From Carnegiea gigantea (taxonomy: Eukaryota; Streptophyta; Magnoliopsida; Caryophyllales; Cactaceae): a stretch of 64,000 nt of DNA. Both the position numbers and the translations under genes were made by a program. Within the stretch, counting starts at the first letter, position 1; the number at the start of each line of letters is the position of its first letter. The DNA lies in contig JAKOGI010000026.1 of assembly GCA_029747015.1 (NCBI GenBank), positions 843,317 through 907,316 of the forward strand. The letters run 5' to 3'. The notes beneath the pieces are model-generated. The model had not been told where the DNA came from and searched no databases. It saw only the letters and a list, made by a program, of their open reading frames with translations. This document shows positions 5,490 through 49,560 of the stretch, in pieces.

Positions 5490-6960
5490 GATTAAGTCTC
5501 CTTGAATTGCCTAAACTGAATGGGAATAATTATCATATGTGGGCTGATAAAATTGAATTTTTACTTACTCAATCTGTGGTTGATTATGACTTAACTGAAT
5601 AACTGCTGAAGATGCTACTAAAAGATCTAAAAGGACCCATGAGAAGAATAATAAAACTTGGCATGGTCTACTTATGCATTGTATGACTAATTTAGTGTAC
5701 TGTATTTATAGTAAGAAGCAAAGCGCCATGAAAATTTGGGAAGCTCTCAAATCTAAGCATGACTTTCATGATACTAATAAGGGTGATCAAAACCAATTAA
5801 CCGAAAATCGGTTAATTGGAAATTTGGTTCACAAAAACTGCGAACTGAAACTTTTGGTCAACTTGTTTACGGTTAACCAAATTTTTCGGTTTGGCAAAAA
5901 TATGAATCGTAACCGAACCGAAATACTCGGCTCACTGATTTTTCGGTTCGATTAATTGGATTTTCGGTTCATCGAACCGGTTAACCATTGATTAAAATTG
6001 TTAATTTTCAATTTTCACTCTTTTTGAAATCTAATTTAATTATTTATGACACCAAATATTAACTTACACATTATTGTATAGTTAGCCTTACCTTTTTATA
6101 GTTGTAAAGTCTACATTTGACTAATATAAAACCAAGTACTTTTTAAAAAAATTTGAAGTTTTGGTTTCAGTTAACCGATTTTCAAATGGCCGAACCAAAA
6201 TCGCGCTTTTTTCAGTTCGATTGACCGAGACGAATTTTTTTGAAAAATCAATCCGGTTAACCGGTTTTTCGATTCAGTTTTTCAGTTTTGGATTTTTTTG
6301 CTCTCACCTACATACTAGGATTAAGAAATATGCTTGTAGTAGGTGGTTATCATTTAAAATGACTGATGATAAACTTGTTCTTGAACAAGTTCATGAGTAT
6401 GAAAATTAATGTGCTAAAATATTGGCTGAGGGTTTGAACATCTGTGATATCTTTCAAGGCAATTGCTTACTAGACAAACTACATCCTTCATGGTCTAATT
6501 ATGTTAGCACCATGAAGCATATAGAAAATGACTTTAAAGTTAAAGAACTGATTGTTCATATTAACATTAAAGAGTAGTATCGAATTTAATCCAAGGGAAA
6601 GAATTCAGATCACTCTTCATCTACTGCTAATTTAGTCGAATCCAAGAATGGTTCAAGTGTTGATAGAACTAAGGGACCAAAATGGGAAGCAGCACAATAA
6701 CAGGTTCAAGGGACAAGGATCCAACCAAAAAAAAGTTTGAAGGCAAAAGTGTTATGCATGCAACAAATATGGATATCTAGCGAAAGATTGCTGTGAAGGT
6801 TTCGGACCTACAGGTAACAAGTCCAATGAGAACAACATTCAAGCCAATCTACAGAAGATGTCATTATTGTCGTGGTCATGTAGGGAAACTTGGTAAGCAA
6901 CTCAGTAGAGTGGGTGGTCGATTCTAAAACCACTTGACACATATGCACTAACAGTGACCT
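5490..6960 (+). pseudogene. copia copy 2: gag and protease remnant, interrupted by an insertion
   Basis: The start of gag is readable at about 5500-5600 (LNGNNYHMWADKIEFLLT), the classic N-terminal copia gag segment. Gag is cut at 5777 by a 533-bp element and resumes at 6311. The zinc knuckle at about 6748-6795 reads CYACNKYGYLAKDC, with the His of CX2CX4HX4C replaced by Tyr. The protease core near 6918-6950 is destroyed by a stop. Each copy has lost different key residues, so they decayed independently. Confidence 0.75.
5778..6310. mobile_element. hAT-type non-autonomous element (533 bp) inserted in copia copy 2
   Basis: The insertion starts taagggtgatcaaaac and ends gctctcaccta, giving imperfect terminal inverted repeats (TAAGGGTGA / TAGGTGAGA). 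The flanks are gatactaa (5770-5777) and catactag (6311-6318). The empty site in copia copy 1 reads gatactag (40-47), so each flank differs from the ancestral octamer by one base. An 8-bp TSD and TA(A)GGG-like ends fit the hAT superfamily. The inside is rich in ggttaacc and cggttcg motifs and has no coding capacity. Confidence 0.8.
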
Positions 6961-6999
6961 TTTTCAAGAGTATGAAAAGGTTATTAGTGGTGAATGTGT

Positions 7000-8170
7000 G
7001 TTTATGGGTAACTCTACTTTTGTGTCTGTCCTTGGTAAAGGGAAGGTTTCTCTTAAACTAAATTTTAGAAAACTTCTTTCACTTCAAAACGTACTTCATG
7101 CTCCAGATATTCATTGATACCTTATTTCTATTGATCCTCTGAATAGGACTGGAGTTAGAGTTAGTTTTGATTCTGGAAAAGTTATTCTTAGCAAGGGTGG
7201 TGAATTTATGGGCAAGAAATTTTGTAATGCAGGGCTTTTTTGGCTTGATCTTGTTGTTGAGAATGCTTTTGTTGCTTATATTGTTGAGTCTATCTCCTTA
7301 TGGCATGCTAGATTAGGACATGTGAACAACACCTCTATAAAAAGGCTTAAACAATTAAATTTAATTCTTGCATTCAACAACTGCAATCTTGATAAATATG
7401 AAATATATGTGGAGGCTAAAGACCCTAAGAAATCCTTTATAAAAATGTAACTTGAACCTTAAATTTATTAGAACTTATTCATAGTGATCAAGCTTACTTC
7501 AAAAACACCACGAGCAGAGGAGGGAAAAAGTATTATATTACTTTGGTCAATGACCGCTCTAAGTTTACTAAATTACATATTTTGAGTAGTAAAGATGAGA
7601 CCATAACTGAAATTCTTGATTTACAAAGTTGAAGTAGAAAATCAATTGGACCGAAAAATCAAGAGAGTTAGGTCTAATAGAGGAGGAGAGTATGATGTCA
7701 TCTCCCTTATGAAACATTGTGAAGAATAAGGGATTATTCATGAGTTGTCTACCCCTTACACTCCAAAACAGAATCGTATAGCAGAAAGAAAGAACAGGAC
7801 CGTCAAAGACATGATGAATGCAATACTTATTAGTTCAATAATGCCTACAAAAATGTTAGGGGAAGCGATCCTATATGGTTGCTATGTGTTAAATAGAGTT
7901 CTATACAAGAGGAGACAAAACTCTCTATGAGTTGTGGAGGGGTTTTGCTCCTAACGTAAACTACATTAAAGTGTAGCGGTGCTTGCTGCTTGGCCAAGGC
8001 AGGACTTCCTGATTTTAAAAGAAGCGAAACTAGTCCCAAAACTATTGATGCCATCTTTATTGGTCATGTTCATAATAGTGTTGCATATAGATTTATTCTA
8101 AAAGATGGTTTTCGCTTTGACGTTAGTAGGGAGTTGAGACATGTAGAATTTTTTGAGTAAATTTTTCCTA
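7000..8170 (+). pseudogene. copia copy 2: GAG-pre-integrase and integrase remnant
   Basis: The frame 7208-7450 encodes SLWHARLGHVNNTSIKRL, the conserved GAG-pre-integrase segment with its zinc-binding His residues. Integrase core pieces follow: the RSNRGGEYD region (about 7670-7695) and the TPYTPKQN-AERKNRTVKD region in the frame 7745-7930. A stop after 7450, a frameshift near 7610 and others break it. The same pieces are recognisable, more damaged, in copy 1. Confidence 0.8.
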
Positions 8171-8339
8171 TGAAAACTTATGTGGATAAGTGTTTCTTTG
8201 TTGCATCAACATCATGTCATAACATTGCATCATCTAGTAATCTGAACCAAGAACATAGGAGTAAAAAGGCTAGAAATGAGCTAGCTTTGGACCTGACTTT
8301 TTCACTACTTTCTTGGTAGAGATAGATATACTAAATGAG

Positions 8340-9250
8340 CAAACTATGAATGTGTTAAGGACCAAAGACTTATAAGGAAGCCATAGAGCCCATAAACGCT
8401 CATTTCTGGAAAGAGGCTATGAATAGTGAACTAGAGTCTCTTATAGCTAATGGAACTTAGACTTTAGCTGATCTTCCTAACGCTTGGGAGTAAATGGTTG
8501 TTCAAAACGAAACTTATAGAACCGTAGATAAGTTCAAAGCTAGATGTGTGGTTCAGGGGTTTAACCAGAAAAAAAGGATAGATTACTTTGATACCTATTC
8601 CCCTGTAACGAAGGCTGCTATGATTCGTGCATTAATCGCTGTATATTGCATCCAATCATAATCTTGTTGTGCACCAAATGGATATCAAAACATCATTTTT
8701 AAATGGTGGTCTTGTGGAAGAGATATACATGAAGCTGCTTAGATGGCTTTGTGGTACCGGGACAAGTGCATAAGGTTTGTAAGCTTGTTAAATCTTTATA
8801 TGGGCTAAAGCAAGTCCAAAGCAATGGTGTGAAACATTTGACTCTACTCTTTCTTATAATGGCTTTCATGTTAATTACTGTGGCATAGGTGTATATTCAA
8901 AAGTTGATAAGCATGGTTGAGTAATCATTTGTTTATATGTGGATGATATGCTCATCTTCGGTACAAACTTGGATATTGTTAATGCTACTAAGTCCTTTCT
9001 TAGTACATGTTTTGACATGAAAGACTTGAGATTGAGAAGCAGATGTTATTCTTGGCATTAAATTAACTAGGACCAAAGAGGGGATATGTCTTAAACAATC
9101 TCACTATAGTGAAAAGATACTCAAAATGTGGTCAATTTGACTACACACTCCGGTCAGAAACCCCTATAATCCTAACTTTCACTTAAAAAAGAATAAAGAT
9201 AATAGTGTATCACAAAGTAACTATGCTAAGATAATTGGTACTATGATGTT
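8340..9250 (+). pseudogene. copia copy 2: reverse transcriptase remnant
   Basis: RT fragments include HQMDIKTSFLNG (about 8670-8707), 'KVCKLVKSLYGLK' (about 8770-8810) and an intact catalytic box LYVDDMLIF (about 8930-8960). Frameshifts near 8745 and 8815 and further stops prevent translation. Unlike copy 1, the two catalytic aspartates are kept. Confidence 0.85.
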
Positions 9251-13839: not shown

Positions 13840-15389
13840 ATGGTGAGTGTAGGTGTCAGAGTCTCCGGCGCATGCTTCAGAGTAACCAGGGCTCGATCAC
13901 CACGATTGCAGCCGAAGCCATGCTATGACTCGATGAAGTGTGCCAGCCAGAAGAGCGAGTGCTACGAGAATGACACTGGTTTGAGCTTCAGTAGTACTGA
14001 GACGACAGGAAGCAGTGATGACAGTTCTACACAAAGTGAGTCCAAGCTATCCAACAGGATCATGGTTGTGGTGGACTGGAGCCACGAGGCTAAGGGCGCT
14101 CTTCAGTGGGCGCTTTCTCATACTGTTCAGAAAGAGGATACTGTTATTCTTCTCCACCTAGCTAAACCATCAAAAAGTGGTAAGTGCCTGTCAAAATTTC
14201 ATTTGACTTGTGCCTGAAAAAGCCTTTGGCGATTCATGCTAGGGTAAGGCTGCATACATCTGAAGCTTTGCAATATCTGGGGTCCTTCTATCAGCAGATG
14301 TTCTCATAGATCGATATTGCACAATGCAGGATCAAGCACTGATGCTGGGGTCAATCCCAGAGTCCACGGACTTCTTTCCTCCATGAAGAGCCTCTGTGAG
14401 GCTAAAAAACCTGGGGTATGTCAAGACATCCCTTAGATAATTTGTTACCAGACAAACTGTGCCACGTGTCTACTGTAACCAAAGGCAAAAAGAGTTGCAG
14501 GAAACGAACATGGGTTTCATCTTCTAGATGAGAAGCATCAAAGCACGCACATATCCTACTAGTACTTGTGTAGAGGGTATCTAGAAGTAATGTTCTTGAA
14601 CTTTGTACTTCCCGACTTTATCTCTTCCCATCCAGCTCCTTCTAACTCCTAGCTTTCTAACTATTTCCTTTTTAACTCGTGACTCTTGCCAGCTCCTTCC
14701 AACTCCTTAGCATTGAAGCTCCATTTTCCCACTGAAAAGAACAAGCCTTAAGCATATAAGCCAAATCCAGCAATTCAAATTAAATCTCTTTTAAGTACCA
14801 ACCATGCTTTCAATAAGAATTTAAGATATCACTTCTAGACCCTGATATGTACTGTCCAAATGCCAAATTTTAAAATTTTGAAGGGTGTTCATACCAAGGT
14901 TAGAACGCCCATACATATATGCAAAGCAAGCACTCCCACCTGGTCAGGAGCTTCTTGTCAGTTTGTAGATCAAGTTTATGACCTATCATATAGACAGCAT
15001 AACACTAAAGCAATATTTCCAACACATCCCCCATTCGACGGGCTGCATATAAAATATGAACCAAAGCTTTAACAGGATTGCATGTATTGCTATGAACACA
15101 GGTACAAGTAGAAGTATTAGCACTCACAGGAAAGGAGAAGGGTCCAGCTATAGTAGACCAGGCAAAGAAACAGAAGGCGACATTACTGGTACTGGGCCAT
15201 AGAAGGCGACCGATGGCATGGAGACTCCTAATGAGATGGTTTGGAAAGAAGAGGAGCAGCCAAAGCATCGTGGATTACTGCATCCAGAATGCTGATTGCA
15301 TGACCATCGCTGTAAGGAGAAAGAGCAGAAGATTCGGAGGCTATTTAATCACCACCAAGCGTCACAAGAATTTCTGGCTCTTGGCCTAA
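13840..15389 (+). CDS. universal stress protein (USP)-domain protein, 3 exons, 237 aa
   Basis: Exons are 13840-14179, 14330-14415 and 15102-15389 (stop TAA at 15387-15389). The introns have gtaagt..cag, gtatgt..cag junctions and the three exons join in frame (340+86+288 nt). The first 70 residues are Ser- and Cys-containing and look disordered. The USP alpha/beta fold starts at residue 73 with RIMVVVDWSHEAKGALQWAL (a beta strand with Asp79, then helix) and HTVQKEDTVILLHLAK. Exon 3 begins VQVEVLALTGK and contains the ATLLVLGHRR strand and a SQSIVDYCIQNA helix. The usual nucleotide-binding G-2x-G-9x-G-(S/T) pattern is only partly kept (GHRRRPMAWRLL..), so ATP binding is doubtful. This plant subgroup is annotated as adenine nucleotide alpha hydrolase-like. 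The frame is intact, with a TATA box upstream. It converges on ER-ANT1. Confidence 0.88.
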
Positions 15390-18300
15390 CATTTTGATCT
15401 AAAAAAGCAGGATCAATGGGGCTTTTTCCAGAAATAATTATTCCACTCAACATTTGGAAACTTCCTCTCAAAAACACACCTCCATCCTCAAATATAGTGT
15501 TGCACTAATGTATACATTTCATGATTCAAACGTGACATTAGGATGGTGAACAAAGACAAGCTAAAATCACGCTAATATCACAACCAATTCTTGAGGAACA
15601 TCATAAATGGAAACTAAGACATTTTTCCTTCTGTCCTTTTTGGACTAAAAGAAGGCAGATTCTTTGGATGCGTGTTACAACGATTCTTTATTTCACTTTA
15701 AGTACCCATGTCAAGTACTGAAGCTCCAACATATGGAAAGCTACTTCACCATTAGTCTTTAGAAAACAGCCACCCTCAATATCTAGACTCTTGTTGGGAA
15801 TTTGACTCTGCTACATGGGCATGACCACATCAAATAATGGTAAGTGAATTATGATTGGGGTACTACTGAATCGTATTTCAAGCTGCATTTACTGGAACAA
15901 AGTCTAAATGCATTTAATAACCTCTTTAACGTCTCAAAAGAAACGATGTTGGTGTCTACGGGAAGGGATGGTAGGGTAACTGACCATTCTAGAGAGTGAA
16001 CAAGTAATTGTCCACGATGCAGAGATACTTTAACAGCAACGCAAGCTGCTGATGCTTGAATGTTGGGCCAAACAACTCTCTGAGTGACAGTTAACAAATT
16101 AAGGACTATAAAATTTGATCCCAATGATTGTTGAGACTAACTTCTAACCTACTGAACTGCAATCTGAAAATTTCGATACTATTCTGTGATCATTCTTGAA
16201 AAGCTTGACGAACAAATTCGTAAGGCCAAAAATGTATTTCTCCACATGAAGAAATAAAGGAACACACAGACGTAGTCAAAGAACCTAGCAGGCCAAAAAG
16301 TTCTACACGCCAGAGAAGCAGGCTAATCTCCATCAGCCTGTGAAAGAAATCAGAGAACATTTATTGATGAGTGACCCTCTAACGTATCGTAGGAAAATCT
16401 ATCTTAAGAAAGGCAGCAAAATTAGATTTCGATTATGTTATTAATGGAAATTAAAGAAGGATTCAAACTTCAATGCGAATCAACTTCTGAAGATGCTCCT
16501 CACTGCCTACACTCCAGCTCTATCTCAGCGACAGCAACAGAAACTACAATTCATCTCAAGGCTTTCTAGGCACAGAAAGGGCCTGAAATGAACTGGGTTC
16601 TATTATGCCTTGAAAGTTCCCAGACTGTCATATCTAAATTGAATGCCAAGCAACCAGCATAGGTCATCGGTCTAGGCATCTGACAGCCAATTTCTGTAAC
16701 TCCTGCATGTTTTTAATCTAAGACGGTTTCATGAATGCACAATCATGGCTGTGTCAAATACCCGACATGAATACTTGCGGTGAAATGAAAAGTATATATG
16801 ATGTAGGCCATAACTGAACTGAAGAAACCAATTTCTATCATCGTGCTCCTGATGAAAACAAGTCTTAAGTCACATGTGATCCCTATGGTCCTTCTGCGAA
16901 AGAATTAAGAAGTAATAGCAAGCAAGTACAGCATGTACTTTGGAAAAAAATCTATAAGTGTAACAAAATTTTTAAATCACTTTAGTCCAAAGAAAAAATT
17001 ATAGACTTGATGATAGTAGACAAATCAAATCTCATGCCTCCAGGCTGCATATGATACTTCTGAACGAGAATTTTTTTAAAAAAATTACAGTAATGCAGTT
17101 CAACATGTACTAAAAAAATACTGTGATAAATGTACCCCCCTCCATTTTGGAATAATATATTCTGTTGGATTTAGGCCCATTCCAAAAAAGAAAAAAAACA
17201 CTGTAATAAATGTTCATACTTCATGCCCCAAAAAAAGGGGGTTTCATGATGTTCAATTAATTCTCTTACTATATAAGGAAAAGTAATAGCGGAATGTGTG
17301 CTTGAGAATTCCTTGAAAACAATTAGCAATGCAGTGAACACACTTTATTTTAACTCTATCCCATTAGCCATCAGACGATCACTAAAGGCAGCATCAATTG
17401 TTATTATGCATCATCAAATGTTTATACAATTCATTCAGAAAATATTAAATGTGACCAGAAGTTCAGAACTCAAAAGTATAACTACCAATGAGACAACAAC
17501 CATGAAATCCTTTGCTTTTTACATTTAAAAAATTAAAAAAATTCTATGTTACTACTTACGGAATCAATAAAAGAATGAAAAAATCAAAACCCTGGAGGAT
17601 TGAAGGGAGGGGTGTTCAATACCTTTTTCATAGGAAGATCATACCAAATGATCTGTATTTTCCCTGAAACTTCGGCATCCACAAGAGACTGCAATATGCT
17701 ATGGACATTTGCAAAAACATGAGCATTAATCAGCAAATAAGACATAATCAAAACAAAAGAACAAAGAATCATGGCACAGACAGAAAATAATAGATTAATA
17801 CAACAAAGACTTTGCAGCAATATTCTGATGAGTTTTCTGCTCCTACGTCCAAGAATATCTACTAGTGAAGCAACGACATGCAAGACTATATGGTTTTATA
17901 AATCCTGATATGAAGTCAAATCTAGAGAATGTCAACAAGTGAAGCAGTAAAATGCACCATACTTGATACACACGTGGCATTGCAAAATATGCAAGACAAA
18001 CTACGGCATCTGACCCTCCGAACTGGAGACTGTAACACTTACTCACCCAGACATCAATCCACCTTGATAGTTGAATGCTTTAGACCCATTGCTCAGGATA
18101 TGCTGCACCAGCAGTTTGCAAAGCACCCCATTTATGGTTTCATAGAGCCTGTTGTGAAGCCAAATGTGCTGAAAAATGAAGAGCTCTGAAGCCAGCACAT
18201 CAGAAGAAGAAGGATTTAACCAATATCAACAGTTACAGGAGTATTGTGTCATGTTCTGCAGACCTGAATTAGAAAGGCAACACTTAAGTGGTTCAGATGC

Positions 18301-29804: not shown

Positions 29805-30088
29805 TGACCTCTCAAAATCCTCTTTTCTTTTGTTGTAAAGGTGGAAATGGCCAAAGTGCAATACTAAACTAGTAACGTCATTGCTAAAATAAATTTTTTT
29901 TAAAAAAGAACAAAACATGCAACACTAGGAAAATCGTACAAACACAACCACCAAATGATCAAAAATTGTGCAAAAATTGACTTCGTGCAAGTAAAGGAAA
30001 GCAACGTGTGATTAGCGAACAGAAATGTATACATCACCCTCTTTTGAACTAGGAGATGCATGTTGTAAATACATACATACCTGCCTTG

Positions 30089-30237
30089 CGAAAAAATGCT
30101 CTGGATTACCCCACTTTTTATGGAAATAATTTTTAGGAGGCTATGTTATTAGAATGTATTATGAAGTACACAGTACTGTCGATAATTATTAAAAGGGTAC
30201 TCTCCAATGATAAATGTGTAAATGTCAATGAGCTTTT
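30089..30237. repeat. MULE left terminal inverted repeat
   Basis: It pairs with the reverse complement of 47968-48112. Identity is roughly 70 percent by eye with a few indels; both begin C(G/A)AAAAA..TGCTC. Confidence 0.8.
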
Positions 30238-31482: not shown

Positions 31483-33037
31483 CTAATGCTGCAACTGCTG
31501 AGGTAGAAGCTTGGTTGACTTTTTGGATCTTTTTGGCCTTCCAACTGGATTGTCAGTCTTCTGTCGAGGCTTCTTCTTGTATTTAAGGCTACAAGTTTCA
31601 TCCCTTGGCTTCCCGCATGTTAGGCTATTATGACCCAATTGCTTGCACTTCTTGCACCTCTTAGTACTACTTAAATGTATAGAAGGTATTTATGGAGGGA
31701 TGGAAAGTCTGTTTTTCCTTCTCTTGTACTTCTCTAGCCTTTCCCTTTTCCTAGGGGTGAATTATGCCATCATAAAGCTTCGTATACCTCTCAACATGAA
31801 ACCAATCACAACAATAATCAGCCAACTGGTGGTTTAGGCTGAGAATGCACCTACGAGCATGCTTACAGGTTAAGCCAATGATTTTTCACCTTTGACAATC
31901 ACAATAATGGTCTCCCAACTTTACAGTGAAATTTGTGGATCCATCTCTAATATCAAACTTCCCCCCAGCTGACACTAAGTTACTGCAGTTTCTAGACTCT
32001 AGCTCAAGTTGCTTGAACTTTTTCTCCATAAATGGTGTCACTTTACCAGCTGACATCTGAAACCTCGTATCAAATCTAACCCCAACAAGCTTTCTAATCT
32101 CTTCTAACATAGTATATATTGGTTTTCGTGTATGCTTCACAATGGTGTTATTGAAACTCTCAACAAAGTTATTTGTGTTGGCATCTAGCTTGAGTGTGTG
32201 ATCAAACTTAAACCTTGCCTAATGTTCCAAGGGCTCATTGTCTGTTAACCAATGTAAAAAAAATGTCCTTTTTCTTAATTTTCTCCGTTGTCTTTTTGAA
32301 AACAACTTCTGAGTATGCATTGGAAGTAATATAAAAGCAATGAAATCATACACCTTCACCATTTTGAGAAGAGGGGAATAAAAGATATGTTAAATACTGA
32401 CCGCGTCAATTATATGTTGAATATGCACATACCAGGGTAGTTCGAGACAAAGTTTTTATGGAAATGGAGGACACATATCCTCCTTGAAGTTTGAGGCATG
32501 ACATCCTTTAATGCTTTAATTATGCCCTGCATCATAAACAACAAATTAAGTAATTCAAAAAAGATAAAAAGCAATTAAGCTACGTTGTACCATGTGCCTG
32601 TCAAACATGATTATATACTTGGAATTGTCTTCCCTTGCATCTAGTACAGTTGCTAGTCCATCAAGGAAAAAAAAAAAAAAAAACCTTTTTTCCTCTTCAT
32701 GCTTGGGGGTGCAACTCTATATACTAAGGGGCACTACCTATTGTTGCCATCTAACCACATGGTAGTAATAAGGATACCCGTATATGGCCCTTTCAAGTGA
32801 TAGGCATCACTGGTAATGAATGGTCTACAGTGTTGTTTGAATACAGCAATGGTTGACCCTATACAAATTTGACACATCTTGAAAGATGGATTTTTATTAG
32901 GGTCCTCATCCTTCCAGTTGATAAAACATAAAGAGTCAGGATTTCTTTCCTTAAACACATTCATGTACTATGGTAGCACCTTATATTCTTCATCATGGCT
33001 ACCTTTAACCACATCTTTCATTAATTTTCTTGCCCTC
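31483..33037 (-). pseudogene. MULE transposase core, SWIM zinc finger and C-terminal zinc knuckle (3' piece)
   Basis: Reading the - strand: RARKLMKDVVKGSHDEEY directly after the insertion, then 'CRPFITSDAYHLKGPYTGIL' (the first catalytic Asp region of the MULE transposase), 'FFLDGLATVLDAREDN', 'DVMPQTSRRICVLHFHKNF', and the SWIM finger 'LGDHYCDCQR' with 'CKHA' after a TGA in place of Trp. A CX2CX4HX4C knuckle CKKCKQLGHNSLTC lies at about 31620-31661, followed by a basic tail ending in a stop at 31485-31483. Poly-A/T slippage near 32669 and several stops inactivate it. The upstream half of the gene lies at 43000-47250. Confidence 0.88.
33033..33037. repeat. left target-site duplication CCCTC of the chimeric LTR element
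   Basis: ccctc abuts the first base of the LTR (TGTTGAACGG). The second copy is 43000-43004. Removing one copy plus 33038-42999 restores the MULE reading frame DYTCW-RARKLM. Confidence 0.85.
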
Positions 33038-34459
33038 TGTTGAACGGTAAATTTACCCATTTTACGTGCCTCTTTCACCTACTTTTTGATCGTATAATAA
33101 CTTAATTTATAGGATTTTACCTTGTTTTATTTATGTTTTGTAGGAAATAACTCTAAATCAAACAAACGCTGCGGAAAGGGACAAAGATGGGACAAAACGA
33201 TGAAAATCAGCGAAAACAGGCGAGGACAGCAGCGAAGGACGGTGCACGGCCGACCTGCAGGTCGGCACGGCCGTGCACAGGTGGCCGAAGCCACGCACGG
33301 CCAGACGCATGGCCGTGCGTTCTGACCGTGCGTGGTGGCGCACGGGTGGCCGTGCGTCCAGGCACGGCCGTGCGTCGGGCCTGGGTTTCGCGATTTAAGC
33401 CCATTTCGGGCGTCTGTCGAGGGGGTTTTTCATTCGTTTTGTCGTTTGGGGCTTTTGCTCTGGCGATTTTCTAGGTTAGTTTAGGGTAGATTTTAGTTAA
33501 TAAGGGAGATTAGTTTAGGATTGAAGATTGTAACACTGGATTCAACCTTTGGATTTCAAGTTCCTTCATCAATTCAAGACTACGTTTTCTCCCCCTTTCT
33601 CTATTTATTTCATTGTTGTTCTTGTTTATGTTCTTGTTATTTTAATTCTTGTTTTACTTTGTTTAGTTTATTTGTTTAGTTCTTGTTATTAATTTGTGTC
33701 ATTTACTTGTTTGAATTCATTTTATTTCATTTCCTTTGCTTTGTTCTTCGTGTTCTTGCACTTGTTTGGTAGTTTAGGTTTTGATTCGTTTTTGATGTTT
33801 AGTTGGTAGATTGTGTTGGCTTGGGTTGTGATTAGCCTCTTGATGGCTAATTAATCTTGTATTTGGCCCAACCATACTCAATCCATGCTTAGAACCTAGA
33901 GTTTTCCTTCACGCCCGCCAAGTGTTCGATGAAATGCCTGAGAGGGTTTTCATCCATATTTTTGGGCGATTGACTTATGCTGAGAGGTGAGGTCAATTTG
34001 CTAGTGTGGGAGAGGGAATGGCTGAGTTCGGGACATGAGAATAGTATCCGAATCGAGTTAGGTCCGGGGTTGCTAGTTTTGTGGTCTAGTTGGGCTAACC
34101 CCATGAAAATAGGCGGTTAGACTAACTAGACTAGCTCATGACCCTTGAGAGAGGGCTTGGGTGGTCTTTAATGGTGCAACCGACCATCTCTTGTTCGTAG
34201 CGTAGTTTGGGTAGGTTAGGACTCGTCTTGGTTAGTTGGTTCATCCATTGGTAAAATCACAACTCCAAGTCGCCTTTTTCTGTGTTTGTAACGTAGTTTA
34301 GTCTTTTCTCTTTCACCCTTCGATCCTGCCTAGCTCGAGACGCTTTAGCTAGCTCTGGTAGTTGGAAACACAATTCCCTGCGGACGACACCCCAAGTACT
34401 CAACGATACACCTTGCACTTGGGGTTTATAAATATTAAAACTCTGCTTTTCCTGCAACA
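33038..34459 (+). repeat. 5' LTR, family A (1422 bp)
   Basis: It begins TGTTGAACGG and ends CCTGCAACA, followed after 6 bases by the primer binding site. Its first 405 bp are repeated at 37467-37871. It contains a GC-rich block (33240-33390) with many gcacggccgtgc-type palindromes, in otherwise AT-rich DNA. Confidence 0.88.
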
Positions 34460-34465
34460 AGTTTT

Positions 34466-34483
34466 TGGCGCCGTTGCCGGGGA
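34466..34483 (+). other. primer binding site tggcgccgttgccgggga
   Basis: This 18-mer is the PBS seen in Athila-type plant Ty3/gypsy elements and their non-autonomous derivatives. It lies 6 bp after the end of LTR A. Confidence 0.9.
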
Positions 34484-34573
34484 ATTGACGTTTTTCGATA
34501 TTGGGGTTTACTTTAGCATTCGAGGCTAGGCCTTTTGAAAATCCCAAAAAAAAAAAAATTCAAAAAAAATTCA

Positions 34574-35982
34574 ATGGCAATTTTCCATTTTCCCCAATGT
34601 GAGCAAGAACTATTTTACCGTTATTGGGATCGTTTACATGCTTATCTTGCTCAATGTGCTTCTTGTGGATGTTTATATGGGAAATGGAAATATTGCATGT
34701 TGTTGATGAGGGTGTGAATTGTGAGACCCGTGCTCTTTTGGAGCATTAGGATTTCTATGCTCGAAATGTTGATGAAGCTTGGGAATTACTTGAGTGGTTG
34801 GCTTGGGATACTTATGAATTTGAAACTAGTTGTTCTGATTCTTGTACCCCACCCCCTTGCATCCCTAATTATGCCCCTCCTGTGTGCGAAATTTGCCATT
34901 GTTCTGACCACGCCAGTACTTCTTGTCCCTATCATATTTCTAATGAAGGCTTTGCTAGATTTAGCAATATGATAGAGACAATGAATAAGCAACAAGTTGA
35001 GTTTGCTGAGTTTGTTAATAAAATGCGGGAGTATGACCTATCACCCGAGATTGACCCTAGTTCTAGTGCTCCTAGACTTGATGTCAACCTGTGTGATGAT
35101 GGTGCGTCTTTACCACCTCTAGAGTCCGGACTAGAGGACGTACTTGACCCTCCCTTGACCACTTCACTCACTGTTGCTTCATCCTTTCCTAATACCCTTT
35201 GGGACAACACTGCGCTTATCATGACCTTTCCTGATACACCTTCCCCTTTAGCTCAGTCGACGGAGTTCGAGGTAGGTGAGACCTTTGGCGTTAGCGCTAG
35301 TGTTGAGGAGGATGATACTTGGTCTGAGTCCGACAATGCTTCTATTGAGGTGCATACTTTTTATGGGACTCCCGCAGGGACTTCATGCATGGATGTTGTA
35401 GTTGCAGGGCCAACTAGTCCTGATTTTGTTGATAATATATCCCCCACCTCTCTTGATACATCCCATGCTTCCTATTCATGTTCACCACCCTCCCATTCCC
35501 CTAAGTGTTGTGATTTGTCGCTTATCGATCCTCTTGTGATACTTGAGGAGAACGAGGCTGCCTGCCGTAAGTCTCTAGGTACTTTTAGAGGGTATGACCC
35601 CCTCCTTGATCCTTCTCGTCCGTACCTAGAGGGCATGTCTGGAGAAATCGCATTGACTATTGCATTTGATTTTTCTGCTGATTTCTCACAGGTATTTGGT
35701 GAGTTTAAGAGGGCACTAACTTTGTTTGCTCCATCTTTACCAGTGTTCCCTTACTCACACCATTCCGAGCTACATGCAGCTATGCATGATAAGCTCCTGA
35801 GAGATTTGACTGCATCCGAGCTGACGACTCGCATCTTGAGCGGCAAGGAGTGGCTGATGCTCCTTAAGTCGTCATGGAATAGTTCGGGTACATTCAATAC
35901 CCGACCTGGTGTAATCGTTCTCACTCTCTTCCCCCCTTCTTTTTATTTTTCTTTTTTGTTTTTGTTTAGTTGTGAATATTAG
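34574..35982 (+). pseudogene. retrotransposon gag-like ORF of element A, one frameshift and one nonsense codon
   Basis: It starts at the ATG 34574: MAIFHFPQCEQELFYRYWDR. This matches the retrotransposon gag segment found in Athila-type elements. A frame change near 34700 and a TAG near 34748 (in place of a likely Trp) separate it from the long frame that runs from 34798 to 35982 (394 codons). That frame has a perfect CX2CX4HX4C zinc knuckle, CEICHCSDHASTSC, at its residues 30-43. A Ser/Pro/Asp-rich acidic linker and a folded-looking C-terminal part (ALTLFAPSLPVFPYSHHSEL) follow. Nothing resembling protease or pol comes after it. Confidence 0.8.
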
Positions 35983-37466
35983 GGTTGTGTTTTCGGTTGG
36001 TGATCATCTTGTGTTGAAATGTGAATGTTGTTGAGCCATTGATGGCTATGATCACCATTTTCGTATTTTTGTGAATATTTATTGTGTTGTGATTGGTGGT
36101 GTCGCTGGGTTGGTATATATTTGTTTTTGGTGGTGCTAGCTTTGTATATACGTTTGATCTAGTTGATTGATTTGGGTAAGATTGTGTTTTCGGGGAGTGA
36201 GGTAGCCTGCGTTTATATTGTGCAGGTTTGGTGTCATTATGTGTGATTATTTTGTTTTGTGTGCCTTGTGTTTGACTTTTCTTTTCTTTTATTTTTGTAT
36301 ATTTTTGTGTGTTGGTGATGACTCGCGGCTCCCAATGAGGACATTGTGAGATTTAGGTGTGGGGGTGGGGTCATCTCCCCTTTTTCTTCTTATTTTTGTG
36401 AAATTTTTTAATTTTTGTGTAAATTTTTCAATTTTTCTCCTTTTTGTATAATTTTTCTTTTTCTTTTTGCATTTAGGGGAGTTTTGTACTATTTTGATCA
36501 GCTTTGATCTTCGGTACCTTGACTATTAGCTCGTATATAAGTATAATGTGCATGATAGATATCCATCCCCAGTCTGTCATTCTAGACCTCAATTCTAACC
36601 CCAACAGTCCATCGTAATTTTGTAATCCAGTCCTGAATTCATGTATTGTCATCATCCTGAATTCTTAGTCTTTCACGATCGACTCTCCCACTGTCTACTG
36701 CACAGTTCCCTTTATATGCGCTGGCATCCCCTTTTTCCAAAACAAAAGCAAAAACAAACAAATTCAAGCGCTACTGGGTGTATCCCTTTGAGGCGTGACA
36801 TGAGTTTGTAATGAAAAAAAAATAATGGAAAAGAAAAACAAGTGGGGAAGAAAAGAGTTGGAAATGACAAGTACCCCTTTGAGGCATGCGCTACTGGGTG
36901 TTACCCTTTGAGGCAATACTGTTACTGGGGAAGCTTGCTTTCCATGCTAGCCATTCGAAAAGGTAGCTTGTGTCAGCTGCGTGGGATTGAGTTTGGTTTT
37001 GGTAGGCTTAGTTTTAGGGTGATGATACACTTGCACACAGGCACCAGGATGGATTCATTATTTTCATGCGTCGTGGGGTGAAAAGCTGATATCTGAATGC
37101 CATTCTTTGGGATGATGTATCCTGAAATGCATATAATGCTTGTGTACAGACTGATATTTGAGCTACTAGGTGGTTTTGGTTGATCCAAACGTGTACAGTT
37201 CACCCTGATGTTTATATTGTGTTTTGTCATTTTTATTTTTCAATTTTAGTTTCTCTTTTCTTTGTTTTTCCTTTTTGAGATTTTGTGGGTATATCTTCTG
37301 CAAACCCTCACGAGACCTTACTCGTCCACTTGGGGTAACCAAGGGGTTTAAAGGGCTTGTTGCATACGCTAAATGCAACCGTGATTCCTACGAAAGTGAG
37401 TTAGTTGTTTACTTTAGTTTTTCTTTTATTTTGCTCGAGGACGAGCAAAAGATAGGTGTGGGGGTG
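35983..37466 (+). other. noncoding 3' internal region of element A with polypurine tract
   Basis: T-rich, noncoding DNA. From 36371 on it forms the left arm of the large palindrome. A polypurine tract (gataggtgtgggggtg, about 37451-37466) immediately precedes the second LTR A at 37467. The sequence ctcgaggacgagcaaaagat just before it is the usual context of the PPT in this element group. Confidence 0.75.
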
Positions 37467-37629
37467 TGTTGAATGGTAAATTTACCCATTTTACATGCCT
37501 CTTTCACCTACTTTTTGATCGTATAATAACTTAATTTATAGGATTTTACCTTGTTTTATTTATGTTTTGTAGGAAATAACTCTAAATCAAACAAACGCTG
37601 CGGAAAGGGACGAAGATGGGACAAAACGA
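36371..37629 (+). repeat. left arm of a 1.26-kb near-perfect inverted repeat
   Basis: It is the reverse complement of 37863-39127 with only scattered mismatches (for example six residue changes between the 60-codon frames 36655-36473 on the - strand and 38843-39025 on the + strand). It covers the 3' internal region, PPT and first 163 bp of LTR A. The spacer is 233 bp. Confidence 0.93.
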
Positions 37630-37871
37630 TGAAAATCAGCGAAAACGGGCGAGAACAGCAGCGAAGGACGGTGCACGGCCGACCTGCAGGTCGGCACGAC
37701 CGTGCACCGGTGGCCGAAGCCACGCATGGCCAGACGCACGGCCGTGCGTTCTGACCGTGCGTGGTGGCGCACGGGTGGCCGTGCGTCCAGGCACGGCCGT
37801 GCGTCGGGCCTGGGTTTCGCGATTTAAGCCCATTTCGGGCGTCTGTCGAGGGGGTTTTTCATTCGTTTTGT
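37467..37871 (+). repeat. partial LTR A (first 405 bp), direct orientation
   Basis: It starts TGTTGAATGG and is colinear with 33038-33442 with few substitutions. It is cut at the shared string cgttttgtc, where the sequence switches into the inverted copy. Confidence 0.9.
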
Positions 37872-39127
37872 CCCATCTTCGTCCCTTTCCACAGCGTTTG
37901 TTTGATTTAGAGTTATTTCCTACAAAACATAAATAAAACAAGGTAAAATCCTATAAATTAAGTTATTATACGATCAAAAAGTAGGTGAAAGAGGCACGTA
38001 AAATGGGTAAATTTACCGTTCAACACACCCCCACACCTATCTTTTGCTCGTCCTCGAGCAAAATAAAAGAAAAACTAAAGTAAACAACTAACTCACTTTC
38101 GTAGGAATTACGGTTGCATTTAGCATATGCAACAAGCCCTTTAAACCCCTTGGTTACCCCAAGTGGACGAGTAAGGTCTCGTGAGGGTTTGCAGAAGATA
38201 TACCCACAAAATCTCAAAAAGAAAAAACAAAGAAAAGAGAAACAAAAATTGAAAAATAAAAATGATCAAAACACAATATAAACATCAGGGTGAACTGTAC
38301 ACGTTCGGATCAACCAAAACCACCTAGTAGCTCAAATATCAGTCTGTACACAAGCATTATATGCATTTCAGGACACATCATCCCAAAGAATGGCATTCAG
38401 ATATCAGCTTTTCACCCCACGACGCATGAAAATAATGAATCCATCCTGGTGCCTGTGTGCAAGTGTATCATCACCCTAAAATTAAGCCTACCAAAACCAA
38501 ACTCAATCCCACGCAACTGACACAAGCTACCTTTTCGAATGGCTAGCGTGGAAAGCAAGCTTCCCAGTAGCAGTATTGCCTCAAAGGGTAACACCCAGTA
38601 GCGCATGCCTCAAAGGGGTACTTGTCATTTCCAACTCTTTTCTTCCCCACTTTCTTTTCTTTTCCATTATTATTTTTTTTCATTACAAACTCATGTCACG
38701 CCTCAAAGGGATGCACCCAGTGGCGCTTGAATTTGTTTTTTTTTTTTTGCTTTTGTTTTGGAAAAAGGGGGTGCCAGCGCATATAAAGGGAACTGTGCAG
38801 TAGACAGTGGGAGAGTCGATCGTGAAAGACTAAGAATTCAGGATGATGACAATACATGAATTCAGGACTGAATTACAAAATTACGATAGACTGTTGGGGT
38901 TAGAATTGAGGTCTAGAACGACAGACTGGGGATGGATATCTATCATGCATATTATACTTATATACGAGCTAATAGTCAAGGGACCGAAGATCAAAGCTGA
39001 TCAAAATAGTACAAAACTCCCCTAAATGCAAAAAGAAAAGGAAAAATTATACAAAAAGGAGAAAAATTGAAAAATTTACACAAAAATGAAAAATTTTCAC
39101 AAAAATAAGAAGAAAAAGGGGAGATGA
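37863..39127 (-). repeat. right arm of the inverted repeat: inverted partial LTR A and internal region
   Basis: On the - strand it reads LTR A start (38025 down to 37863), preceded by the PPT and 3' internal region (38026-39127). It ends at ggggagatga (39118-39127). The matching point in the left arm is tcatctcccc at 36371. Confidence 0.93.
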
Positions 39128-39825
39128 TTAGGGCGAGTGAACTTTTCATGATTTGGCCGGCCTTGCATCGCCAGGCCGTCAACACTGGCGCCTTTATTGC
39201 CGACCACCTGCACGAACATGCTAAATCCTCTAAGGTGGTCCTTAGTGATGGCGGTATCATCACCGCCTTAGCCAAAGCCTTGGGCTATGCCGCCCAGATC
39301 GCCTCCTTGCCCATTCTCCATCAGCCCGGCCGTCTGGACTTAGCCACATGTCTTAACATGAAACTATTCACCACTCATGGTGGAGGTCCGTTGTGGCTCA
39401 ACCACCACGGCCGGGCACTTTTTCCCTTCCCCAACCAGCCCAGGACCACTGTTACCAACCATGAGAACCTCATCTATGACGATGAGGCGGCCGGTGAGGC
39501 TGGGGCCCATTCTGATGACGGCAGCGACCATGGGTCCACTGACGATGCCGAGGCTCTCCCTCGGGCTCGCGGTGGTTCGCGGCGTCCCCCTAGCCCTCCT
39601 GCCGCCGGCCTCTCTCATCCATCACACCCTTCACCTGCCGGCGCTATGAGTCCTTCGGTCCTTCAGACGGTTTTAGACCGTCTCGACCAGTTACATGTCC
39701 AGAACCAGGAAATCCTTCGCAACCAGCAACACATGACCCACCTGGTTCACTATGCTTATGAGACTCACAACTGGCCTTATCCGCCCCCTGATTGGCGGCC
39801 GCACGGATCCCCCGGGCCTTCTTGA
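39124..39825 (+). CDS. Athila-type retroelement ORF fragment (233 aa)
   Basis: The open frame reads MIWPALHRQAVNTGAFIADH, then SDGGIITALAKALGY, then an acidic and Pro/Ser-rich linker and a C-terminal coil (VLDRLDQLHVQNQEILRNQQ). The 'GGIITALAKALG' block is typical of Athila ORF1 / plant-transposon-protein domains. The reading frame opens right at the palindrome junction: its ATG overlaps the inverted arm. The N-terminus is therefore probably missing and the present start is accidental. GC content (well over half) contrasts with the surrounding DNA. Confidence 0.65.
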   Translation: MIRASELFMIWPALHRQAVNTGAFIADHLHEHAKSSKVVLSDGGIITALAKALGYAAQIASLPILHQPGRLDLATCLNMKLFTTHGGGPLWLNHHGRALFPFPNQPRTTVTNHENLIYDDEAAGEAGAHSDDGSDHGSTDDAEALPRARGGSRRPPSPPAAGLSHPSHPSPAGAMSPSVLQTVLDRLDQLHVQNQEILRNQQHMTHLVHYAYETHNWPYPPPDWRPHGSPGPS

Positions 39826-41622
39826 TTGCCCTTCCCTTCTACCCCCCCTTTCTTTTCATTGAGGACAATGACCGCCTCAAGTAGGGGGGAGCGCGAGTCC
39901 GCTGCTCCGCTGCTTGTATATAGGTTGTTACATTTTCATTTTTCTTTTATTTTTCTTTTCACTTCTTTTGCATCTAGAGCATGTAGCTATATTTTGTGTT
40001 TTCATTTTCCTTTCCCGCATGCATATAGCGTAGTGCATTTAGCATAGGTACTTGCATCGCACGGGGGACTTGGAGAGTTGGATGCGCTCAAGCCCACGAG
40101 GTAATCTCTATTTCTTCCTCTTTTCCTTTTTCGCTTGTGTTTTTATTGTTTTCGTAGCTAGTTTTACGTTTTTCATTCGCAAAAAAAAAAAAAAAACCCC
40201 TCTTATGATGATAGTCAAGGCAACAAGGATCAGTTGGGTGATATGGTTGTGTACACTGGTGGATTCTTTTATGGTAAAATGCTTTTGGCTGATGCTTTGA
40301 GAAGCGTTTTGACCCCAGTGCTTGGTTCGCTTTCCTATTTGCCATTGACACCCTCCCTCATGACTGACCATTTCATCTACGTAGGACATCTTTTGGGATC
40401 AGTTGTGGTGTTTGGTAGTATAACCCGTGAGACTTTGAGCCTATAGACTAATCATCACTTTAGTCTCATATTCCTTTCATGTGTGTCTCTTCTACGATTA
40501 CATTTCTAGAACTTGTTGGGATTCTCTTTAAAATCGCATTTTAGCGTGTGCATAACGATGAAATGATAGAGGCATTCGTTTGTCTATCTTTTTAGCTACA
40601 TAGCCAAATTGCCACCTGCGATATCATGCTTGCCCTTTGCTTACCCCTTTGAGCCTTATCTATTTTTGTTGTGACCCTCTAATTGCAAGCTTTTGGCCTA
40701 AACACATCTCCTACCTTTACGCCAAAGCTAGTAGAGCAACACTTCACTTTTGTGGGAGGTTTTTGGATATTGATTGTGGTTATTTTGGCTTGTGCTGGGG
40801 TTATATTATGTTGTCTACTCGGGAATCTTGCCTATATTGTTCTTATACATGTCACTCACTTATTTTCTTACCCCCCCTTTCAAAAAAAATATATATAAAA
40901 AAAATCAAAAATCAAAACAAAAAGAAAAAAAAAAAGAGAAAAAATGGGGGGGAGGAAAAAAAAATAAAGACGTTTGGCATGATTCGTTTAGTGCTTTCCC
41001 GAATGGTCCCTGGGGTTTAGAGCGTGTTTGTACTCATATTGAGAGTGTAATGTAATTTGTTTAAGTGTTGGCTGCTCACTAGCTATTGGCTTTTTAGCTC
41101 CACATTTCCTAAATCATTTGTCCCTCTCTCACCTATACCCTTAGCCCCATTTCAACCCCCTAAAGTCCTCTTGATCATTGTCATGCATTATGCGTCTTCG
41201 CGGTGGAGAATTGAGAACCCTACCAAGCCTATGGTAGATTGTTTTAGTGGAAGAGAGTTTAGCGAACCACTTTACATCATAAACACATGCAAGGGAGTGC
41301 ACTTATAATTACCCTTTTCTATGAGATTCACTACCACACCTTCTGACCCACTACTTACTTGGATGTGTTTTGATTTGGGGGGGCGATATGGTTTGATGGG
41401 ATGTTGATTTGAGCACGTGGCCTTCCTAGCGCTTTCAAATGAATTTGAAAACTGAATTTATGCCTCAAACTACTCCACCAGTTGTGCACATCAATGTTTG
41501 CTCTGCCTGACTCTTTGTTCGCCTTGCCTGAGGAGGTGGATAGTTCAGGTTTTTAACTTCCTCTCGATCTACTCATGTTTCGATCTTGCTTGGGGACAAG
41601 CAAGCGCTAAGTAGGGAGGAGT
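39128..41622 (+). mobile_element. internal region of element B
   Basis: Unrelated to element A's 3' internal region. It contains one ORF (39124-39825, starting 4 bases before the junction) followed by about 1.8 kb of noncoding, T-rich DNA with an A-tract near 40183-40196 and A-rich tracts near 40870-40970. It ends with a purine tract (gtagggaggagt, 41611-41622) directly before LTR B. The string ttggggacaagcaag before the PPT is the usual context in this group. Confidence 0.7.
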
Positions 41623-42999
41623 TGATAAACCTCAAATTTGACCCACTTTCGACCCTGATTCTTCCTTTTTTTTCCCGATAATCTTTCGATTAATCTTAGC
41701 AAAAAGGGAGTTGAATATGCGTTCTTGACCTGTTATGGACTCATTTGCCATATTTCTTGATCTGCAGGTCTAAGGTCTAGAAAGTGGGAGTTTTGCACGA
41801 GTTTTACCAAAAATGACGCTCTGGGATCAAATTCTGACATGAATGAAGCGTCGATGAAGCCCGAGAGGACCATTTAGAGGCGCACGGCTGGCTGCAGGTC
41901 ACGCACGGTCTGTTGCAGGTTACGCACGGCCGTGCCTCGAAGGCAGAAGATGCGCACCACCGTGCGTCCTGACCGTGCGTGTCAACCGTGCATTATCCTG
42001 AGACGCACGGGTCCCCGTGCGTAGTACGCACGACCGTGCGTCATTAGATTTTGCGCGATTTAATTACTTTCGCGAGGCAGTTATTAGGGGAAGGTCTGAT
42101 TTTATTTTTCCAGTCGGGCTTTCTTTTCTCTCTCTCTCGAAGGGGCGACTCTAGGGTTAGGTTTGATTTCATTTTGTTGTTCAATTCAAGATTTTGGTTT
42201 GGATTCAATTATTGCTTTCGGTATATTGTTGCTACAGATTGGTACACTCTTGAACCCTTCTTTTATTCGTTGTAATTCAAGTTTCTTATTTCTTCGCATG
42301 TTATCATTATTGATTGAAGTTGAGATTAGAATCATGTTTAGCGGCTAAGTTCCTTAATCTTGGATTGGGTGCAGCCTCTATAATGTGAATTGGATATCGA
42401 TTCTAGGTTTTTGTGAATTCTGCCTAAAGTATTATTGGATTCTCACTTAGCACGCCAGGTGTTCGATGAATTGCCTGAGAAGGCTTATTCATGTTCTTAA
42501 TTAGGGTTTAGGAGACTAATGAGAGTTGGGTCCTTTACCTAGAGCGGCTTTGCGAGCGATTGTAAATCTTAACATGAGAATAGTTAGGATTTCAATTGGA
42601 AATTGAGATTACATGATCTTGTGGTTTTGTTATTCTAGTTTCATGAGAATAGATAATTAGGATAATTCAATCAGTCTGATGACCTTCGAGAGAAGGCGCA
42701 GATGCTCTTAATTGGTAATTATTCCATTTCAATTGTTCCGCAGGCAGATTCACATTACCTAAGTTTTCTTCCCAATGAACGTCATAGTGTGGTGAACCCC
42801 AATCCAGGATTCTTCTCATAATTTGATATAAACCTAATAGAATTAGAATCAGTTCACCCAATTCACCAGACCTAGCCTAGATTAAGTGTCACAGATTGCC
42901 TCGGTGATTGAAACCAAGTTCCCTGCGAATACGACCCGTACTTGCCTTTGCTGGCTACAACCGGCACCGTGCACTTGCGGTTTATTAAAACGATTAACA
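41623..42999 (+). repeat. 3' LTR, family B (about 1377 bp)
   Basis: It begins TGATAAACC after the purine tract and ends ACGATTAACA, directly before TSD CCCTC at 43000-43004. It is related to LTR A: both carry a GC-rich block of cacggccgtgcg motifs (41880-42040 here), a gtgttcgatgaa..tgcctgaga module (42470-42482 here, about 33924-33943 in A) and similar 3' ends around 'ttccctgcg'. Overall the sequences differ strongly. Confidence 0.8.
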
Positions 43000-43004
43000 C
43001 CCTC

Positions 43005-47250: not shown

Positions 47251-47967
47251 CACACAATCAACCACAACAACTTATTCAAATATAGGACATGCAATTTAAC
47301 AGCATCCATTGCAATCATTAACTTTGCATATATAAAAATACAGAGCACAGAAGACAGGGCAAGAACTACTTATTTGAAACAAAAATTCACATCAGAATAG
47401 ACTGATTAAATGCCCACCCATTACATATTCAACACAGTTATCAAGGCAATTAGCATAAATTAAACCCTAACTTATTATTTATAATTTCATGACCAATGAA
47501 TTTCGTACACGCTAACCCAACAAACCTAAGGTTTCAAATTACTAACTAAAATTCTCATTATATAACTTACAATTACAACAATCGACTTCTAACAACCCAC
47601 ATTCTTCATGTTTGGTGAAAACAAAAACAAGTATTTGAAGATAATCATAGCAACAACACCATCAGATTACCAAAAAAAAGGGTCTTTAACACTATTTATC
47701 ATTGCAGAAACCTCCGATACTTACCTTCTAAGCGCATATTATCGAACTCCTCACTTGGTCCTTCTTCATTAAATGATGTTCTTTAGATTTTCAGTCTATG
47801 TTTTTCATATTTGAAGGGGAGATGGTATCTGGGGTTGAAGAAGAGAGGGAGAGAGAGAGAGGGGATGAGTTGATTTTGATGGTCTTTAGGTTTTCAGTTT
47901 AGGCTAATTAAGCCACTTGCTTACACTTCGCGGGGTTTGATAAGGGCATTTATGTCATACAATAAAA

Positions 47968-48112
47968 GCTCATTCGGATTTACATATTTGTCACCGAAAG
48001 GATCCTTTTAATAATTATCTAACATTGTCATGTACCTCATAATATATGCCAATAACATAGTTCCCTAAATATTATTTTCACAAAAAAGGGGATACCTCGG
48101 AGCAGTTTTTTG
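47968..48112. repeat. MULE right terminal inverted repeat
   Basis: It is the reverse complement of the left repeat at 30089-30237. A CT-rich leader-like stretch (gagagggagagagagagag on the + strand, about 47845-47865) lies just inside it, suggesting transposase transcription starts here and runs on the - strand. Confidence 0.8.
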
Positions 48113-49560
48113 CTTGCATTGGGTTGTTAAATCATATTTTAACCTAAACACTTATCCTTGTATCTGGTTGTAAACTTGTAACCTTGACAGCCTCAATTCT
48201 TCTTTTTAAATTTGCATATTGTCGTTAAAATCACATGTACTTAAATATTACATGGACTCCTCAAATTTTTGGTTAAGTGTCCATTCTAACGTCTCATGGT
48301 ATTTGCACTATATACATTCCACTCTTTGTTAAAATATATTTTCAATGGACTCGCAATTGCTAATTCAAACTTAATTTTCTTTCCATTGGTAAAGCTTTTT
48401 CGTTGACAAATAACAATTCTCTATTTGTGCAAAGTCTTTTCTAGAGGAAAAGATGATTCATCAAAACCAATTGAAGAGATTTATTTATTCACATTCTAAT
48501 TCTTATTTTTGTCTTATAGTTAAGGTGCTACGTATGTCCAATACTTCTCATTTAAAACCATCTTAATCCACATCCCCATCCATTCCTTAATTTATTTATA
48601 GTTTAGTACTCTTCATTTGTCATTCAGTTGAGCTCCATTATATCTTTGCGCATATAGAAGTAAATGCTCGTCAAGAATGAGTTTTTGTCACGAATTGCAA
48701 CAATATTACTTGATCTGTGGCAAATAGCGGATTGATTCAACTAACATTTTCGCATATTTGGCAAAATTAGTTGTCTGGATAATGGATAGTAGTTCAGGTA
48801 ACGGATAGTTGTTCAAATAGCGGATAACATTTCTAATTTAACTATTAGAAGATAGCTGTTTAGATGGGCAGTTAAAACAAATGTTTTCGATAAATTTGAT
48901 TGTTGGTTTAGCTGATTAATGTAAATAAACATACAAAGATATAGATAATTTTCAGGATATTCCAAGGGATATTTTTTGATCAAAAAATATGAAACGCTAC
49001 TTTTAAATGCCAAAAGCTAATACTGTTAGTTTTTCAACAATTCTGCTTAAAACACTAAACGCTACTAGAAATACTAGTAAAAATACTAGGTTATCAAATT
49101 GGCTTGGTCAAAACACTAAACACTACTCAAAATGTTGTTGTCGAATATGGCCTTTAATGGCCTTATCTTTTTTGTACACCACCACTATGAGAGCCTTTCT
49201 TTTTTCCTTTTTGTAAACATGAGAGTGTTTCATGCTTTTTTTTTTTTTTTTTCCCCCATGAACCCACAAATTCTATATATTTTTAACTAATCCCTCGATT
49301 GAAATTCTATTTTAATAAGAGTCAAATTTATGTAAGATTGTGAACCATCACTTATATTTTCACTTTTAAAACTATAAGTTGTATTATGCGTTTTTTTATT
49401 TTTCCATAAGCATTTTGTAATTCTCTCAACATCAATGACCATTATTCTCAACTATTTGTCCAATTTTACATCTTTTTAAGCCAATTGGTGAAGGCTCTCT
49501 CGAATTTTACTACTTCACTGAGTACTTAATTTGTTGCTTGCTCTCTCACTACAAGTAGTT

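Follow-up and report, generated by a model that had tools for sequence, protein, structure and literature searches.

In a 64,000-nt stretch of the cactus Carnegiea gigantea (contig JAKOGI010000026.1, C26 in our searches; hereafter the window), a composite retroelement at positions 33038-42999 (hereafter the unit) carries long terminal repeats (LTRs) of two different families, A on the left and B on the right, with a large palindrome of A sequence between them. That a chimeric complementary DNA (cDNA) was integrated here once is well supported, because the termini abut one target site duplication (TSD), the A pieces are of one age and both internal junctions occur in full length only in the unit (among 40 scored candidates for each). 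As to how this cDNA arose, we lean towards reading the unit as the fossil of one faulty reverse transcription, in which a plus strand begun at an internal polypurine tract (PPT) copied itself and was joined to a B cDNA. The genome searched for related copies is that of C. gigantea (1.13 Gb).

Integration site and LTR families

The unit starts with TGTTGAACGG and ends with GATTAACA. Its TG...CA ends directly adjoin the two copies of a 5-bp TSD, CCCTC (33033-33037 and 43000-43004), as expected of a single integration; the one perfect TSD reported by a first-pass annotation is thereby confirmed. The surrounding sequence is a degraded Mutator-like element (MULE). If 33038-43004 is removed, the local MULE frame is restored and DYTCW-RARKLM is open, which bears out, at the local level, the earlier claim that deletion of the unit plus one TSD copy repairs the transposase frame. 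P0050, a Carnegiea protein in which a MuDR domain is present, aligns over the join of this empty site (DYTCWRARKLM). It is the only one of the four MULE homologues found to cross this position: another (P0049) stops at the join and the remaining two align upstream only. The open stretch over the join measures 39 amino acids, with in-frame stops on both sides, and a Pfam scan of the MULE pieces yielded a PF03108 match below threshold, while a second scan gave nothing clear. A 150-bp inverted repeat (30088-30237 and 47964-48113; 75% identical) lies around the MULE and the unit and provides candidate terminal inverted repeats of the MULE, at which a clean TSD was looked for and not found.

Both outer LTRs are complete: LTR A spans 33038-34459 (1422 nt) and LTR B 41623-42999 (1377 nt), the latter directly preceded by a PPT. 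These and the other features of the unit given below are on the plus strand, except for the antisense arm of the palindrome. The global identity between LTR A and LTR B is 54% (678/1255), in keeping with their earlier description as only distantly related, and weak shared blocks are present (63% over 272 columns and 60% over 322). Their local alignment score is 60 versus a maximum of 32 in 40 shuffles, so the two LTRs are distant relatives. At their termini they share nothing beyond an initial TG and a final AACA. A canonical LTR retrotransposon is bounded by two LTRs of one family, and the unit is not.

Elsewhere in the genome, ordinary elements of both kinds are present. Seventeen A loci were fetched, seven of which had been chosen because of two hits. 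They comprise nine pairs of LTR A, of the same family as the left LTR of the unit, six lone LTRs, one LTR without a partner in view (C1090) and one palindromic locus (C132). An exact TSD flanks seven of the first eight A pairs fetched (six at the computed ends and L021 on reading); for L023 a TSD was looked for and none was found. All five lone LTRs tested have an exact TSD. In the B elements C513, C319 and C299, LTR B pairs with LTR B and the outer TSD is exact in all three (CTAGA, AAAAG and GATAA), these being the three tested of four B elements (the fourth is C2691). C319 holds an additional B LTR inside, with a mismatched flank. As A pairs with A and B with B, the two are separate families, and the idea of diverged LTRs of one family was rejected on the same ground. 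The LTR pairs of ordinary A elements differ by 0.6-2.5% (seven compared). Whole B elements measure about 12-13 kb, of which the unit holds the 3' part only; the first-pass view of B as non-autonomous is therefore not borne out. Relatives of A and of B were also looked for in viral and prokaryote collections, and none were found there.

Palindrome and A/B joint

BLAST of the unit against the window revealed a palindrome of A sequence of 2.76 kb (36371-39127). The first-pass annotation lacked it and had neither the partial LTR A (37467-37872) nor the inverted copy of A that extends to 39127. The left, sense arm with the loop (36371-37872) consists of the 3' part of the A internal region, the 3' PPT of A (GATAGGTGTGGGGGTG, 37451-37466) and nt 1-406 of LTR A. 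This partial right LTR (37467-37872) has 9/406 differences from the left LTR A. The right, antisense arm (37873-39127, minus strand) runs through LTR A nt 153-1, the 3' PPT and the A internal region down to the edge of the internal PPT, so that 1255 nt of antisense A stand between the A and B parts.

The identity over the whole palindrome is 93.6% by BLAST; a base-by-base comparison of the two arms finds 2.15% substitutions (27/1258; 21 transitions and 6 transversions) plus four gaps. Of these substitutions, 24 fall in 1095 internal positions and three in 163 LTR positions, and 7/21 transitions are at CG, which makes up 11% of C+G. The rate in the arms equals that between the direct LTR A pieces (27/1258 vs 9/406; Fisher p 1.0). 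It follows that the A parts were identical at the start and aged together. Over the first 163 nt of LTR A, present in three copies, we count by eye four variable sites, each private to one copy (two in the partial LTR, one in the inverted copy and one in the left LTR). The divergence of about 2.2% lies among the values of ordinary A elements. In a tree with ten other A copies, the arms are sisters (support 82/92, with the bootstrap not settled) at 2.2% distance, and the nearest of the ten differs from the left arm by 2.9%. The direct LTR A pieces are likewise mutually nearest over 406 nt (2.2% vs 2.6%).

The fold-back point (37863-37872) is marked by a 10-nt inverted match between LTR A nt 154-163 and 397-406. 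Such a match is unremarkable in LTR A, which contains 24 exact inverted 9-mers; its position at the base of a hairpin is remarkable. LTR A nt 151-406 has a predicted folding energy of -85.5 kcal/mol as DNA (z -8.5) and -140.3 kcal/mol as RNA (z -7.3), and the pair 154:406 that closes this LTR hairpin is the exact strand-switch point. Among the 40 scored of 2502 candidates, the fold-back junction is found in full length in the unit itself and nowhere else. Three other rows of this set (two in C201 and one in C1049) cover the query from 21 to 326-341 at 82-83% identity; these are probably ordinary LTRs with the self-complementary hairpin.

The outer edge of the arms, position 36371, comes directly after the internal PPT of A (TTTAGGTGTGGGGGTGGGG, 36352-36370), at the end of its G-run. 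This tract matches the 16 nt before the 3' LTR A at 14/16 positions, with 10/16 for the next best site in A, which makes it the one strong site in 3 kb of A; a strict pattern finds it in 8/10 other A loci. At the opposite side, A ends at 39127 and B begins at 39128 with zero shared bases, i.e., without microhomology. The sequence AAAATGGGG lies directly upstream of the B edge in all 11 B copies read, followed by TTAGGG or, in one copy, TTACGG. Both edges of the A/B joint fall on GGGG-run ends, a feature that occurs 12 times in 3007 nt of A and 11 times in 3701 nt of a single B copy.

The B internal region retained in the unit (39128-41622) is cut within an open reading frame (ORF) that has a sub-threshold match to PF20167 (E 0.018; 15.4 bits vs a cut-off of 45; confined to profile positions 122-175). 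The best match of this ORF is the C. gigantea protein P0001. Seven homologues were aligned, four of which extend upstream of the cut and two of which begin farther downstream, while P0001 differs there. After the ORF follows an internal PPT-like copy (CAAGTAGGGGGGAG, 39878-39891) that matches the 3' PPT of B (41608-41622) at 12/14 positions. When the genome was searched for other A-B chimeras, no second full-length A/B junction appeared among the 40 scored of 1788 candidates: one is the unit itself, and in the other 39 places one side matches and stops at most 4 bases from the junction.

Sister insertions and the origin of the unit

An inverted LTR forms one end of three further insertions (C132, C51 and C3643), each of which has two ends of the unique 3' LTR region (U3) and a perfect TSD. 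C132 (L045, 1613-8761; TSD GGTAT) consists of LTR A nt 1-1384, an 8-nt filler and a complete A element in reverse orientation. C51 (L046, 134-2500; TSD GTATG) is a 2.4-kb palindromic insertion on the minus strand, ordered as an LTR, a primer binding site (PBS), a short internal stretch and an inverted LTR (nt 853-1). The C51 LTR is itself chimeric: a U3 of LTR B type (nt 1-468) is followed by a different remainder, i.e., a different repeat and unique 5' region (R-U5), and the arms are 26/852 apart. C3643 (16878-28485; TSD TCGAT, read in pieces) combines tandem and palindrome within one TSD (L047, L050, L051, L056, L058): direct LTRs start at 16878, 21252 and 25665, and then come the LTR end plus AGTTTTTG and an inverted LTR down to nt 1. 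The C3643 fold lies at the LTR end plus AGTTTTTG, the start of the PBS, which is what is expected for plus-strand strong-stop DNA. Further LTR palindromes of the U5-U5 type occur in C2512 (around 14200-16940) and C1004 (around 141300-144050), with differing junctions (L048, L049, L052-L055, L057); their outer ends were sought and not reached. Four inverted-LTR loci (C132, C3643, C2512 and C1004) were among the 40 scored of 3028 candidates, and since the sister cases stem from such best-40 lists, no rate can be derived from them. The sister insertions suggest that similar copying errors happened more than once. They demonstrate the integration of U3-U3 products but not the way in which these are made. 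Separately, C470 (368568-369450) contains the tails of two LTR A copies, which face in opposite directions at a distance of about 415 nt (same 40 scored of 3028).

In the scenario that we favour, A cDNA would have been made with plus-strand segments begun at both the internal PPT and the 3' PPT. The segment from the internal PPT would have been extended to LTR nt 406, where its 3' end could have paired with nt 154, and the snapped-back strand would have copied itself to its own 5' end. A palindrome end that derives from the internal PPT has no integrase attachment (att) site, so its rescue would need a partner cDNA. Such a partner may have been a plus-strand segment of B within the same particle, to the 5' edge of which the 3' end would have moved or been joined. 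This step may have been either a jump of the reverse transcriptase or a host joining event. The B segment would have supplied the U5 end, and integrase would then have used the U3 end of A jointly with this U5 end. A snapped-back strand begun at the 3' PPT would instead give a palindrome that ends in U3 and could integrate alone, which is the end structure of C132, C51 and C3643. Two features expected of a self-primed palindrome are present in the unit, namely an arm edge at a plus-strand start site (the PPT) and arms that were identical at birth and are as old as the LTRs; the latter is not clear in C132.

Several observations weigh against this scenario. The structure of the unit is read from the assembled sequence. 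Homology with the 3' PPT places the cut 3 nt before the observed internal edge, and the G-run rule was noticed post hoc. The 10-nt inverted match is unremarkable given the many inverted 9-mers in LTR A, and the sister support of the arms is moderate with its bootstrap unsettled. Among the sister insertions, the inverted LTR of C132 differs by 3.6% from its neighbour and by 2.2% from L022, so that the neighbour is not clearly its closest relative. The pairing available to the folding 3' end is 10 nt in the unit, while the C51 fold has 0 nt of homology at the BLAST arm end and C132 its 8-nt filler; the latter two folds resemble end joining as much as self-priming. Finally, an inverted LTR must reach nt 1 to integrate, so this edge is not independent evidence of a PPT start.

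The folds of C51 and C132, together with an A/B joint devoid of shared bases, fit a serious rival account, which we consider rather unlikely all the same: two cDNAs, A and B, would each have given one end to a single integration complex, and host repair would have joined the inner ends after the A end had folded back like a resected break. Under this account, the presence of two unlike att ends, and of U3 at both ends of the sister insertions, is explained equally well. The account gives no reason, however, why the arm edge should lie at the internal PPT or the B edge directly after AAAATGGGG. The first-pass annotation had proposed a chimeric cDNA that was integrated as such, produced by template switching between two co-packaged RNAs. 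Its first half is well supported by the single TSD and the equal ages. The second half, i.e., a switch between RNAs during minus-strand synthesis and nothing more, accounts for two families within one TSD and has precedents in the template-switch complexes of grasses (PMC1950507), but we regard it as very unlikely. The 1255 nt of antisense A require a plus-strand DNA template, so RNA-to-RNA switching is not enough, and the A/B joint is without homology.

Less probable still is a mosaic made after integration, by separate insertions or by later recombination or conversion, which had been left open before. Recombinants of this kind are the commoner form of complex element (PMC1950507), and nested and multi-LTR loci do exist in these families (L044, C319). 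However, both termini abut one TSD even though the LTRs share nothing but the start and end motifs given above, the arms and LTR pieces have diverged equally, and each of the four variable sites is private. We give the least credence to an assembly or read-chimera artefact. Palindromes are prone to such artefacts, but arms that differ by 27 substitutions, most of them transitions, and four gaps do not look like a fold-back read, the TSD and the MULE frame fit one real insertion, and TSD-flanked cases occur on other contigs.

Lineage, known systems and meaning

The internal region of A (34460-37466) carries a PBS of the tRNA-Asp type (TGGCGCCGTTGCCGGGGA, 34466-34483), 6 nt past LTR A. An ORF in gag position is open over 34798-35982 and appears by eye to be broken upstream relative to its homologues; a Pfam scan of it gave no significant match. 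A scan that covered the two large ORFs of the unit found no pol. With a PBS presumed to be of the tRNA-Asp type a few nucleotides past the LTR, and with an extra PPT upstream of the 3' PPT, A displays features of the Athila/Calypso lineage of Ty3-gypsy elements. The PBS of Calypso/Diaspora pairs with tRNA-Asp 5 bp past the LTR (PMC1142308), and Athila4 and Calypso are reported to have an additional PPT (PMC2829016). Elsewhere in the window, a 2.9-kb direct repeat (41-2971 and 6312-9232; 83% identical, 6.3 kb apart) and a LINE-like (long interspersed nuclear element) sequence with a reverse transcriptase domain (PF00078; 24401-26753, minus strand) were observed.

Template-switch complexes and inverted LTRs are already known, the latter from the report on HERV-K124 (PMC1950507; PMC3625200). 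The complexes of Triticeae, rice and maize (Sabot and Schulman 2007, PMC1950507) resemble the unit in being complex, in having one TSD and in stemming from an abnormal cDNA that was integrated once. Their outer LTRs are very similar, an internal LTR is present as a third and no part is inverted, whereas the unit has two LTR families with a palindrome between them. In place of a third complete LTR and two complete cores, it holds LTR A nt 1-406, an inverted nt 153-1 and a cut B core. The human HERV-K124 also has truncated, inverted LTRs, for which LTR inversion and template switching are suggested (PMC3625200). Unlike the unit, it involves one family, and the excerpted text leaves the mechanism open and contains no PPT-edge argument. 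In human immunodeficiency virus 1 (HIV-1), minus-strand strong-stop DNA undergoes self-priming at an LTR hairpin, which depends on the transactivation response element (TAR) and is suppressed by the nucleocapsid protein (PMC4668388). As in our proposal, an LTR hairpin is where a 3' end folds and serves as its own primer; there this concerns the minus strand in test-tube reactions, while the unit would concern the plus strand, as read from integrated copies. Recombination of two packaged genomes during reverse transcription is further described for Onsen in Arabidopsis (PMC5668417), and recombination of packaged genomes for HIV-1 proviruses with asymmetric LTRs (PMC9278108, PMC5651808), the LTR pairs of which can differ. 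As far as the excerpts of these three sources go, the recombinants differ from the unit in involving one family or virus and no palindrome. In the literature searched, we found no report of PPT-edged LTR palindromes, nor of a PPT-to-hairpin palindrome combined with LTRs of two families at a single TSD.

Insertions of the U3-U3 and A-B kinds that carry TSDs imply, independently of the inner mechanism, that the integrase of these plant elements accepts two U3 ends, as well as ends of two families, in one event. They also point to a route by which long palindromes enter plant genomes, for which inverted LTRs that end at nt 1 next to a TSD are a search target. Palindrome edges may mark plus-strand start sites and fold sites, which would make a failure of reverse transcription known from the test tube readable in genomes. 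A more general possibility, which we put forward tentatively and at somewhat below even chances, is that, in this lineage, plus strands regularly fold back and are copied on themselves as far as the PPT at which they began. A strand begun at the 3' PPT has U3 on both sides, so its hairpin product would be a normal integrase substrate and two-U3 integration would be recurrent, whereas the internal PPT would give att-less palindromes that need a partner cDNA. If this holds true, such fossils would record in the genome both the sites of plus-strand initiation and failed second strand transfers.

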